Source: Methylocystis sp. (GTDB lineage: Bacteria; Pseudomonadota; Alphaproteobacteria; Rhizobiales; Beijerinckiaceae). From it: a DNA stretch of 60,920 nt. The notes under the pieces were generated by a model. The model searched no databases, was not told the origin of the DNA, and saw only the letters and a program-made list of their open reading frames with translations. Below, in pieces: positions 40,170 to 43,288 of the stretch (the stretch's first letter is position 1; each line of letters opens with the position of its first letter). A program made the translations under genes and the position numbers. Location: positions 1 to 60,920 of the forward strand of contig NZ_JAKFWS010000061.1 of assembly GCF_021731785.1 (NCBI RefSeq), in the 5' to 3' direction.

Positions 40170-40712
40170 ATGACCGACCATATCTGGCTGGCGACGGGCG
40201 AAGCGACGGTTTTGGCCAGGGACGGACAATATACCGACGCCATGCCGGAAGTGATGATCGGCAATGTCAAGGGCCCGGTTGGGCACGCCTTCGCCAGCAT
40301 GGCGGGCCAGGTCGCCGGGCATCCGCGCATGTTCGTCATCCGCGACCTCAATCAGCAGGTGCGGCCGGCGACAATGATGACCACCAAAATGACGGTCAAG
40401 TCGGAAGAGTATGTTGAGCTTCTCGGCGGCGTTGTGCAGGCGGCGACCGGCGACGCTATCGTCGATTGCATTGCTGAAGGGATTATCCCGAAGGATCAGA
40501 TCAACGAGCTGTGCATGGTCATCATGGTGTGGCTCGATCCGCGTTGCGCCAAGCACAAGAAGCTCGACAAGAAAGACCTCTATCGCACCAATTATGAGGC
40601 GACGAAGCTCGCGATCTCACGCGCGATAAAGGGCGAGCCGACGGCCGACGAACTCATCGCCAACCGTAAGAGCGTGCAGCATTACGCGCTTGAAGGCGTC
40701 TTCGACGACTGA
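40170..40712 (+). CDS. Formaldehyde-activating enzyme homologue (Fae-like)
   Basis: This 180-residue protein aligns with Fae, which joins formaldehyde to tetrahydromethanopterin in methylotrophs. The C-terminal half is close to Fae: AEGIIPKDQINEL, YNYEATKL-type NYEATKLAISRAI, KGEPTADEL and RKSVQH. The N-terminal half is diverged. Where Fae has AHIDLIIG with the histidine proposed to act in catalysis, this protein reads AMPEVMIG, so that His is Met. It is therefore better called a Fae-like paralogue than Fae itself, and may have another role or be regulatory. ATG 40170 is preceded by AGAGGA. Its 3' end overlaps the convergent DUF2063 gene by 31 bp. Confidence 0.8.
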   Translation: MTDHIWLATGEATVLARDGQYTDAMPEVMIGNVKGPVGHAFASMAGQVAGHPRMFVIRDLNQQVRPATMMTTKMTVKSEEYVELLGGVVQAATGDAIVDCIAEGIIPKDQINELCMVIMVWLDPRCAKHKKLDKKDLYRTNYEATKLAISRAIKGEPTADELIANRKSVQHYALEGVFDD

Positions 40713-41521
40713 TCTTCGCCGAGGACGCGTACGCCGATAATCATGCCGTCCTGAAACCAGCTCGACAGACATTGCGCCAGCCGTTCTGGCGCAATCTCTC
40801 CGGCCTGCTGAAAAGCGGTCATCTGACATATGTCGCCGAAGGCGTGGCCGGCGCGCGCTTCATTGAGCGCGACATATTCGTCGGGCTCTAGCGCATGATA
40901 GGCAGATTCGTAATTGACGCGCCACACCGCGGCATATTCAACCTCATCGCCCGCCGGCGGCGCTTCGACCTTGTCCTGCTCCTCCTCGCTGATCGCCGCG
41001 TCATAGGCCGCGATCGTGCCGGCGGCGAGTTCGAGCAAAGCAAGGCTCGGGTCGAAATCGAAGGCGAGCCTCGGCCAATCCTCCGGCGCGAATTCCGCCA
41101 GCGCCTGCACCGCCAACTGCGTTTCGTCAGGAGAGTCGAAAGCGTCGACCATCGCGCGCTCGAACAGCGCCATGGAAACGGCCGCAGCATCGTCGCGCCA
41201 GCGCGCGCTTTCACGCATGAAATCCGGCAGTCCGGTGGTAAAAAAGCGGGCGTTGGGATCGCGCGAGGGGCGCTGGTCGATGTAGTCGTCGACCAGCGCC
41301 TCGAACGCCTCATCTCCGAGAATCGCACGCAGGCCGGGGTGATCCTCGGAAACGAATTCAGCCAGTCGTATGCGGTAGCCGCTCTGATAGACGCCAAGCA
41401 GCGTCTCGGCAGTCGCGCCGCGCGGCGACAATCGCAATTTTTTCAGCAGCGGCTTGTCCGCCTCTCCGGAGCCGGCCAGCACGCGCTGCTGAAACAGTGA
41501 TTGGAAATCAACGAGCTTCAT
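40682..41521 (-). CDS. bufC: DUF2063 protein, bufferin partner (BufC-like)
   Basis: This 279-residue protein carries the N-terminal DUF2063 domain (LVDFQSLFQQRVLAG, VYQSGYRIRLAEFVSEDHPGLRAILGDEAF, PSRDPNARFFTTGLPDFM). Such proteins sit next to DUF692/MNIO enzymes and are thought to present the precursor peptide to the enzyme. The C-terminal half ends with a winged-helix-like region. The start overlaps the bufB stop as ATGA, so the two are translated together. The symbol reflects the buf gene order and not a tested function. Confidence 0.85.
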   Translation of the reverse strand: MKLVDFQSLFQQRVLAGSGEADKPLLKKLRLSPRGATAETLLGVYQSGYRIRLAEFVSEDHPGLRAILGDEAFEALVDDYIDQRPSRDPNARFFTTGLPDFMRESARWRDDAAAVSMALFERAMVDAFDSPDETQLAVQALAEFAPEDWPRLAFDFDPSLALLELAAGTIAAYDAAISEEEQDKVEAPPAGDEVEYAAVWRVNYESAYHALEPDEYVALNEARAGHAFGDICQMTAFQQAGEIAPERLAQCLSSWFQDGMIIGVRVLGEDQSSKTPSSA

Positions 41522-42363
41522 GCCGCGGTGAGCGCTCGCTCTTTTGAGATGCGGGCGTCGATGTCGCGCATATGCTGCAGCTCGTCGAGAAGATCCGAGA
41601 GCGGAGGAAAATTGTCGTCGCGCTCGATCATGGCGGAGACGTCGCCACAGCGCCGCCGCGCATGCTCGTAGAGCGCCCAGACTTCGTCGCAGACTGGCTG
41701 GTCATGTGTGTCGACGCGATGCGTCTCGTTATCGGTATGGCCCGCCATATGGAACTGCACGACGCGCTCGGCTGGAACGCCGTCGATGAACGCCACCGGA
41801 TCGAAGCCGTGATTGAAGCTCGAAACGAAAACATTATTGACGTCGAGCAGCAACAGACAATCGGCGCGCTCCGCCATTTCGCGAACGAACTCATGTTCGC
41901 TCATCTCGGAGTCGACGAAGGAAACGTAAGTCGAAGCGTTTTCGACGACGAGCTGGCGCTTGAGGAAATCCTGCACCCGCTGGATGCGCGCGGCGATATG
42001 GGCAAGCGATTCTCGCGTATAAGGAATCGGCAACAGATCATGGAGCGTGACGCCGTGAACGCCTGTCCAGGCGACGTGATCTGAAACCCATGCCGGCTGG
42101 ACGCGTTCGGCGAGCGCCTTCAACTGCCGCAAATAGTCGAGGTTAAGCGGATCGGTTGACGCAAGCGACATCGAGACGCCATGCATGACGATGGGATAAT
42201 CGGCGCGTATCCGCTCCAACATCGCCAGTGGCCGGCCGCCGGCGAGCATGTAGTTTTCAGAAATGATTTCGAACCAGTCGACCGGCGGGCGCGACGACAG
42301 GATCTCTTCATAATAGATCGGCCGCAGGCCCAAGCCGTAGCCAAGCGGCGGGGGCTTTTCCAT
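41518..42363 (-). CDS. bufB: DUF692 / MNIO-family peptide-modifying enzyme (BufB-like)
   Basis: This 281-residue TIM-barrel enzyme belongs to the multinuclear non-heme iron oxidative family, which modifies cysteines in ribosomal peptides. Likely metal-binding segments are visible: WVSDHVAW, VVENASTYV, LLLDVNNVFV, FNHGFD, VQFHMAGHTD, HDQPV and MIERDDNFPP. Relatives include MbnB of methanobactin synthesis and BufB of the copper-binding bufferins. The DUF2063 partner and the signal-peptide-bearing precursor favour the bufferin type. ATG 42363 is preceded by GAGGGGA. It lies 90 bp after bufA, with a hairpin in between. Confidence 0.9.
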   Translation of the reverse strand: MEKPPPLGYGLGLRPIYYEEILSSRPPVDWFEIISENYMLAGGRPLAMLERIRADYPIVMHGVSMSLASTDPLNLDYLRQLKALAERVQPAWVSDHVAWTGVHGVTLHDLLPIPYTRESLAHIAARIQRVQDFLKRQLVVENASTYVSFVDSEMSEHEFVREMAERADCLLLLDVNNVFVSSFNHGFDPVAFIDGVPAERVVQFHMAGHTDNETHRVDTHDQPVCDEVWALYEHARRRCGDVSAMIERDDNFPPLSDLLDELQHMRDIDARISKERALTAA

Positions 42364-42415
42364 GACGTGTTCCCCTCTCGGGCATCGCCGCTCATGCCGG
42401 AGCCGCATCAGCGTG

Positions 42416-42444
42416 GCGGGGACGACCATAGGCGCCGCCCCCGC
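42416..42444 (-). promoter_or_regulatory. Intercistronic hairpin between bufA and bufB
   Basis: GCGGGG pairs with CCCCGC around a 17-base loop that can pair further. There is no U-tract, so it is not a standard terminator. It may stabilise the upstream bufA message or lower read-through into bufB, giving more precursor than enzyme. Confidence 0.4.
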
Positions 42445-42453
42445 ACAAGGCGA

Positions 42454-42684
42454 TTACTTTGTGTGGCAGCGGCTCTTCATGTTGCAGCGGCCCTTGTGGT
42501 GGTGACACTGCGCCTTGTGGTGGCATTTGGACATGCCGCGGCAGCTGGACTTGCCGCCGCAATGGCTCTTGGCGTGGGTCGCCTTGGCGCCATGCGCATG
42601 GGCGGGCGCAACCGACGCGCCGCTCAAGGCAAGGGCGATGGCTGCGGCTGCGAGCGCCGGTCCTGAAATAATATTGGGTTTCAT
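42454..42684 (-). CDS. bufA: Cys/His-rich precursor peptide, candidate bufferin
   Basis: This 76-residue peptide has a signal sequence (about residues 1-30, ending VAPAHA). The mature part of about 46 residues is rich in Cys, His and Lys. Its six cysteines lie at 42, 48, 54, 60, 67 and 73, so they repeat every six residues with one seven-residue step. Many follow Lys, Ser or Arg (KSSC, MSKC, KAQC, KGRC, KSRC). It does not resemble the DUF2282 type of bufferin. Its position before a DUF692 enzyme and a DUF2063 partner makes it the likely substrate: exported, cysteine-modified and metal-binding. Direct thiolate/imidazole metal binding without modification is the alternative. GAGGAG lies 6 bases before ATG 42684. 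Confidence 0.82.
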   Translation of the reverse strand: MKPNIISGPALAAAAIALALSGASVAPAHAHGAKATHAKSHCGGKSSCRGMSKCHHKAQCHHHKGRCNMKSRCHTK

Positions 42685-43288
42685 TTTTCTCTCCTCTTAT
42701 ATCCCCCTCGCGATGAGGGGAAGTCGACGCTCTGGCCGCTCGCGCGGCGCATGCCAGCTTCTACTTAGCGCTCGCGGGCGTTGTGTCGGCCCCGGCGGCG
42801 CGGGAAGCAACAGCCCAACAGCATATTGCGCTGCTTCCTGCTTCCGCGACTGTGCCCCTGCGGATCAGCGCGATCCCGGAACGCAGTCCAAGCTTGGCCA
42901 CGCAGACTAAGCATGCGACTTCGATTCCGCCAGCAGTAAATTCGACGATACAGGCGCGCTCTCGCGTTATGTTTAATATATTAAATCAGTATATTAGTAG
43001 TATATTGCATTGCAATATCATGGTTTTGCCGCAGCTTTCCCCGCAACGGTTTCTGCTTCGAGCGCTTGCGGAGGCGGCGCGGCGCTGATAGATAACGCCC
43101 GCGCCGGAGATCAAGCCGGCGCATTCGCTTTGGTTTTCGACCTCGGGCCGCGCCGGCCAGTTCGTTTAGCGAACTTTTTCGTTCTCCCTCGCGTTTCAGC
43201 GGCGGAAGGACGCTCCGATGGTCGAGAGCCGAACTGCAACGCGAACCCTATGCCGGCGCCGCCCTTTCTGGGGCCTTCAGGAGAACAA
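42685..43288. other. Intergenic region between bufA and rpsA with an AT-rich palindrome cluster
   Basis: This 604 bp stretch separates the divergent bufA and rpsA. Near 42968-43020 the base composition drops to strongly AT. It holds a 14-bp perfect palindrome TTTAATATATTAAA (42972-42985), two direct copies of AGTATATT (42988-42995, 42999-43006), and ATATTGCA-T-TGCAATAT (43002-43018). Such clusters are typical binding places for DNA-bending or xenogeneic-silencer-like regulators. No protein gene is convincing here. Confidence 0.6.
42704..42720 (-). promoter_or_regulatory. Leader hairpin before bufA
   Basis: CCCCTC and GAGGGG form a six-base stem with a five-base loop, 7 bases upstream of the bufA ribosome site. 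In the transcript it could limit or tune access to that site. No known riboswitch is recognised. Confidence 0.35.

Follow-up and report, generated by a model that had tools for sequence, protein, structure and literature searches.

A bufferin-type operon of Methylocystis with a divergent Buf2-like precursor and its possible action on scattered BufA2 peptides

Introduction

What kind of peptide is encoded by a small operon of Methylocystis sp. that combines a cysteine-rich precursor with an MNIO (DUF692) enzyme and a DUF2063 protein, and does its enzyme pair serve this peptide alone? The operon, bufABC, lies on a stretch of 60,920 nucleotides (contig NZ_JAKFWS010000061.1 of assembly GCF_021731785.1) that was analysed as a whole and is called the window below. 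Methanotrophs have a high need for copper in methane oxidation and must also survive this metal. The host can be regarded as a methanotroph, as a sequence-only reading of the window had stated, because a PF02461 match (AMO/pMMO subunit) is found on contig C17; its named relatives are Methylocystis. The answer preferred here, with a probability of roughly 0.7, is that the operon is of the bufferin type, that an offshoot of the Buf2 precursors is modified by BufB and BufC (BufBC) for periplasmic copper binding, and that BufBC also acts on canonical BufA2 precursors in trans. The chief interest of the locus lies in this possible arrangement of one enzyme and many precursors.

A Bufferin Gene Set and Its Six-Cysteine Precursor

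The three genes of the operon all lie on the minus strand, a point on which the sequence-only reading was silent. The first gene, bufA (42454..42684, minus strand), encodes a precursor of 76 amino acids, here called W6, with a Sec signal peptide that is supported by its sequence and conservation. It is followed by bufB (41518..42363, minus strand), which encodes an MNIO of 281 amino acids from its likely start, and by bufC (40682..41521, minus strand), which overlaps bufB by ATGA and encodes a DUF2063 partner of 279 amino acids. The peptide with a signal sequence, the DUF692/MNIO gene, and the ATGA-coupled DUF2063 gene described earlier are all present. The order bufA-bufB-bufC with a DUF2063 partner and an MNIO above the BufB cut-off is that of a bufferin operon in the wide sense. 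The listed open reading frame (ORF) of bufB runs from 42429 to 41518. The likely start was placed at the ATG at 42363, with GAGAGGGGAA before it, because the open frame is only 285–290 residues long in several relatives and falls short of the first ATG in that ORF.

The six cysteines of the precursor occupy positions 42, 48, 54, 60, 67, and 73, with gaps of 6, 6, 6, 7, and 6 residues, and these are the positions that had been reported. The claimed richness in histidine and lysine is borne out by 9 His and 8 Lys among the 46 residues after the AHA cleavage site, which was read by eye. This site separates a signal peptide and presumed leader (residues 1–30; 42595..42684, minus strand) from a core (residues 31–76; 42457..42594, minus strand), in which the residues after the cysteines are G, R, H, H, N, and H. 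The spacing is not due to chance, since six cysteines placed at random in 46 residues had gaps differing by no more than 1 in only 117 of 200,000 trials. The six cysteines at a distance of about six residues had been taken as the mark of an unusual precursor. The spacing is real, but canonical Buf2 shows near-even spacing too, and six cysteines at such distances are the hallmark of the published Buf2/BUF_6/12Cys family, whose signal-peptide precursors have six conserved cysteines in 90% of cases according to the available text of PMC12452194. The idea that each cysteine sits in a repeated context holds only in part, with two CHH units left in the window peptide and three in some relatives. What is really unusual is the shifted cysteine register, the absence of Cys-Lys, the His-rich core, the loss of the C-terminal tail, and the canonical BufA2 genes elsewhere in the genome that lack their own BufB2-type enzyme.

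Two other assignments of the precursor were rejected. No Pfam match to DUF2282 was obtained up to an E value of 1, in agreement with the earlier statement that the peptide is not of the DUF2282 (Buf1) type, and the translated sequence holds no EGKCG repeats of the oxazolin kind. Neither the precursor nor BufC had a match in PHROGs, where BufB had a single one at chance level, and a plasmid search with the precursor gave none.

A lack of conservation of the precursor beside bufBC in relatives had been named beforehand as a refutation, but relatives do carry it there. Full-length W6 peptides (139–150 bits) were found in 22 of the 39 genomes of the genus, each directly upstream of a BufB2-type gene. 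In 358 other genomes of the family, matches to the precursor reach 49 bits at most. A contig scan gave 38 pattern matches, 15 of which were confirmed as loci in Methylocystis (10), Alphaproteobacteria (3), Methylocystaceae (1), and Hyphomicrobiales (1); in two of these loci, the match is confined to the C-terminal half. The locus is present in M. rosea SV97 and in strain B8. A relative with nine cysteines, alone or in tandem with W6, occurs in other members of the genus, and a neighbouring genus (g66) has a six-cysteine relative. Among the matches listed in the literature searches, there was no paper on the W6 precursor or on bufferins in Methylocystis, and the word Methylocystis is absent from the main text of PMC12452194.

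The window MNIO matches the NCBIfam model MNIO_BufB (NF050167), which also accepts the Buf1-type enzyme of contig C63 in the same genome, at 376 bits against a cut-off of 310, and Pfam PF05114 at 368 against 25 bits. A methanobactin assignment was rejected at 80 bits against a cut-off of 325 for the MbnB model (TIGR04159). A true MbnB/MbnC pair lies on the separate contig C29 (L099:2277-3663; MbnB, 446 vs. 325 bits; MbnC, 286 vs. 185), and the earlier remark that the precursor is not methanobactin-like agrees with this. Predicted methanobactin machinery and bufferin genes coexist in one genome. The available text of PMC13097082 describes an Asp beside the catalytic Asp in the MNIOs of Cys-Lys precursors and a Phe in those of the Lys-Cys group. 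The window BufB has this Asp and reads IERDDNF at the catalytic site. In a set of 41 distinct sequences of the BufB2 type, the second Asp is shared by 40 and replaced by Glu in L016, whereas the Buf1-type BufB of the same genome reads IEWDNEI. A quickly built BufB tree (L016, L021, L024, and L121 left out) has 36 inner branches, of which 12 are starred and 15 open. It places the enzymes next to W6 and nine-cysteine precursors of the genus in a single supported group (28 rows), separate from the enzymes next to canonical BufA2.

The partner BufC passes the Pfam model PF09836 (DUF2063) with 59 against 27.2 bits and reaches only 21 bits against the cut-off of 142 for the HvfC model NF050145, so it is not of the HvfC type. 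Its predicted model is of low confidence, with a mean predicted local distance difference test (pLDDT) score of 57.7. The top three Foldseek matches of this model (E values from 0.0027 to 0.04, none reaching 0.001) are 3DEE and two TglHI entries in their chain A, which we take to be the partner TglI. A PDB sequence search with BufC gave three matches only (E values of 0.14–0.69), which were taken as chance.

Orphan BufA2 Genes and a Possible Shared Enzyme Pair

The genome of the window also carries three canonical BufA2 genes above the cut-off (on C63, C5, and C26), none of them with a BufB2-type gene less than 1 kb away. Two of these orphans (G000:C26:2944-3168, L097; G000:C5:45155-45385, L096) are far from any MNIO found. 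When an identity of at least 63% to the window BufB is taken to define the BufB2 type, 30 of 37 genomes contain both canonical BufA2 and such an enzyme, 7 contain neither, and none contains only one; these are raw counts that ignore relatedness, and five of the seven genomes with neither are just 64–81% complete. Two further genomes of the genus (G061, G062) also contain both. Most canonical BufA2 genes (48 of 61) are without a BufB2-type neighbour at up to 1 kb, and in 19 of the 30 genomes, that of the window included, no canonical BufA2 adjoins one. In each of these 19 genomes, the sole BufB2-type gene is that of the present locus, where it stands beside W6 in 17 cases and beside the nine-cysteine-like type in G010 and G011. 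This coexistence of orphan BufA2 genes with a sole BufB2-type enzyme suggests one maturase for several precursors. In the wider family, all 59 genomes with BufA2 contain a match to the BufB model, for which Buf1-type enzymes qualify as well.

Maturation of the orphan BufA2 peptides in trans by the window BufBC is the simplest reading of these patterns. For the case of several bufferin genes and one enzyme pair, the available text of PMC12452194 raises, in general terms, both trans maturation and unmodified orphans. The alternative that survives best, although we consider it rather unlikely, is that the local precursor is the sole substrate of the window BufBC and that the other BufA2 peptides are left unmodified or, where it is present, served by a Buf1-type enzyme. 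Such an enzyme is at hand in the genome of the window. Contig C63 carries a Buf1 operon (L095:633-4672) with a DUF2282 precursor (87.7 bits), BufB, DUF2063, and DoxX, together with a divergently oriented ECF sigma factor gene and NrsF. One canonical BufA2 lies at a distance of 1.9 kb from the BufB of this operon and could be served by it. However, this enzyme lacks the Asp of the BufB2 type. Furthermore, only one MNIO is encoded in the whole of G010 (100% complete), that of this locus, yet one canonical BufA2 is kept about 1.5 Mb away. In G203, from the same family, two canonical BufA2 genes lie away from its one BufB and its one distant MNIO.

If BufBC acts in trans, a common leader could be the means. 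The W6 signal peptide resembles that of BufA2. A whole-peptide search of 61 genomes gave 96 matches. Of these, 53 fall on canonical BufA2 genes, another 41 adjoin a BufB2-type gene, and the remaining two, which start at query residues 13 and 35, fit neither class. Compared with 15 orthologues (L071 not included), the signal stretch has low nonsynonymous divergence (dN, 0.016–0.065) relative to synonymous divergence (dS, 0.23–0.89), and the core has a dN of 0.036–0.11 and a dS of 0.20–0.56. These values are rough, as the stretches are short, and they suggest, in equally rough terms, that leader and core are both under purifying selection. Preliminary evidence for the signal peptide as part of the recognition sequence in Buf1 is reported in the available text of PMC12452194. 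A more far-reaching and still tentative view is that BufBC is a hub maturase that would use the common leader to serve the local His-rich precursor and the scattered BufA2 precursors. In these methanotrophs, the evolution of the core might then have been uncoupled from the enzyme, and the local core might have diversified, with nine-cysteine and six-cysteine W6 types, into a mixed thiooxazole/imidazole periplasmic chelator alongside methanobactin.

The Precursor as a Probable Offshoot of Buf2

As part of the joint reading, the local precursor is considered likely to be a lineage-specific offshoot of Buf2 with a BufA2-like leader, a His-rich core, and Arg or His in place of Lys after most cysteines. 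The gaps of 6, 6, 6, 7, and 6 are found in 12 of 12 distinct W6 cores; the peptide of L071 (G036), whose core is outside these 12, has the same spacing. In canonical BufA2 cores, the gaps are 6, 6, 7, and 6, followed by 14 (13 in one), in 36 of 36 distinct cores, which were chosen by a motif favouring typical BufA2. The W6 core is rich in histidine and has no C-terminal cysteine tail. In a joint alignment of nine peptides, five cysteine columns are invariant, and all six cysteines are invariant across eight aligned W6 peptides. To judge from the joint alignment, W6 looks like BufA2 with one extra cysteine hexad and without the C-terminal tail. It might be argued that W6 is an ordinary diverged BufA2 with no functional novelty, as its five cysteine columns aligned with canonical BufA2 and the same enzyme type would allow. 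We regard this as unlikely, since the spacing, the loss of Cys-Lys, and the loss of the tail are found in all 12 W6 cores, while the canonical pattern is kept in all 36 motif-picked canonical cores, and both forms are kept side by side in the genus.

Homology of the cores themselves was examined by scoring 4 of the 12 W6 cores against a profile of canonical cores, with 500 shuffles each. The window core scored above 500 of 500 full shuffles, and the three other W6 cores scored above 448–478 of 500. When the cysteines were kept fixed, the score was reached by 46–70 of 500 shuffles for four of seven nine-cysteine cores and by 31–121 of 500 for three g66 cores. Homology of the W6 core to the BufA2 core is plausible rather than demonstrated.

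There are a number of points that weigh against the preferred reading. The precursor matches the NCBIfam BufA2 model (NF050166) at 25.4 bits against a cut-off of 60 (E value of 1.2e-5). The W6 core contains no Cys-Lys motif, the feature that defines the Cys-Lys group in the available text of PMC13097082. With cysteines fixed, 246, 330, and 355 of 500 shuffles reach the scores of three W6 cores, and 19 of 500 reach that of the window core, a borderline result. A site for a copper regulator was not identified. The Buf1-type BufB close to one canonical BufA2 and the nature of the co-occurrence counts, both given above, point in the same direction. The lost Cys-Lys motifs and a core that is not provably homologous to BufA2 cores would also fit a metallothionein-like periplasmic peptide, rich in His and Cys, that is no longer modified and has kept its leader by descent. 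This explanation is very unlikely, since 22 of 22 W6 genes lie just upstream of an MNIO gene and the six cysteines of the aligned W6 peptides do not vary. Least probable of all is another MNIO chemistry or another metal, such as gold or mercury, with the His side chains involved, for which the 9 His of the 46-residue core and the MerC fusions and gold-induced bufferin operons described in the available text of PMC12452194 could speak, but the combination of BufB with a DUF2063 partner has so far been tied to 5-thiooxazole and copper in the available text of PMC13097082.

For the bufferin-type operon with a Buf2 offshoot, we infer the following course. The Sec-targeted precursor would be recognised by BufBC, partly through the conserved signal or leader sequence, and BufB would oxidise the core cysteines, most likely to 5-thiooxazoles. 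The product would be exported to the periplasm via Sec and bind excess copper there. The same BufBC would probably mature the canonical BufA2 peptides in trans. The basic residues after four of the six cysteines (R, H, H, and H) could replace Lys at the Asp of the enzyme, and the His-rich core may supply extra metal ligands.

Noncoding Elements and Surroundings of the Locus

A GC-rich hairpin with an 11-bp stem and without a T-run lies between bufA and bufB, just 3' of bufA (42416..42444, minus strand). Its z-score is −2.67 against dinucleotide shuffles. It is 97.4% paired in 14 orthologues (14 of the 15 near sequences were taken in, and L042 was left out), yet there is no compensatory (two-sided) change and no excess over shuffled columns. 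Stretches after bufA that fold at z ≤ −2.0 against mononucleotide shuffles were found for 17 of 19 distinct W6 and 28 of 35 canonical precursors, and hairpins of differing sequence stand 3' of many bufferin precursor genes of all types. Putatively, the hairpin may raise precursor levels over enzyme levels. On the 5' side, a stem-loop in the untranslated region (42685-42732) reaches a z-score of −1.34 only. Between rpsA and bufA, an AT-rich stretch (42967-42998) is conserved in close relatives in an upstream alignment made without L071, and a promoter-like match overlaps it; the stretch may belong to the divergent rpsA promoter. The neighbours of the operon encode a formaldehyde-activating enzyme and a dihydroorotate dehydrogenase, with no evident functional link.

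Some related loci have additional precursor genes. In L053 and L055, a nine-cysteine precursor stands in tandem before the W6 precursor, upstream of bufB, and W6 perhaps arose by way of such a tandem. In several relatives, the first gene of the bufferin locus is an ORF for a signal-peptide-bearing product with two cysteines (L053:516, L055:531, L060:789(-), L062:699(-), and similar). It often reads KCGGKNGCPA with a tail of Lys, Pro, and Ala, and it often lies ahead of a nine-cysteine precursor. No such ORF was seen upstream of bufA in the ORF list of the window. Another MNIO gene of the same genome lies on contig C20 (L098:1179-3503); its product reaches 241 bits against the BufB cut-off of 310, and the flanking genes encode a membrane protein of the TIGR04222 family (86 vs. 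43 bits) on one side and a protein of 197 amino acids without a family match on the other.

Comparison with Known Systems

With MbnB/MbnC, the W6 offshoot, one Buf1 operon, and three canonical BufA2 genes in a single genome, peptides for copper uptake and for copper buffering can be compared there directly. Should one BufBC act on several precursors via a common leader, the question of several bufferin genes with one enzyme pair, as put in the available text of PMC12452194, would become testable, and the locus would also show the extent to which an MNIO of the thiooxazole type tolerates Arg or His in place of Lys after Cys.

The methanobactins (MbnABC) are likewise MNIO-modified cysteine peptides tied to copper, and MbnB and MbnC are encoded in the same genome. 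They differ in the MNIO branch, in the partner protein, and in a precursor without a Sec signal. The captophorins with EGKCG repeats (oxazolin, fontiphorin, bulbicupramide) resemble the present system in the MNIO and DUF2063 pair, in their several cysteines, and probably in the 5-thiooxazoles; however, W6 has no EGKCG units, and the captophorin enzymes have Phe where the window enzyme has Asp (PMC13097082, available text). Buf1 (DUF2282) has a bufferin operon too, with a BufB above the same NCBIfam cut-off, and the genome contains one such operon on C63, but W6 has no DUF2282 match and the enzyme motif is ERDD in the window and EWDN in Buf1. Buf2 (BUF_6/12Cys; NF050166) has in common with the window operon the Sec signal peptide, six cysteines at near-even spacing, the bufABC order, and a BufB with the Asp of the Cys-Lys type. 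The differences lie in the precursor, which is below the BufA2 cut-off, has a register of its own, and combines a His-rich composition with the absence of Cys-Lys and of the C-terminal cysteine tail. Six evenly spaced cysteines are already known from Buf2; what is new is the divergent form of a Buf2-like precursor, encoded together with an enzyme pair of the BufB2 type.

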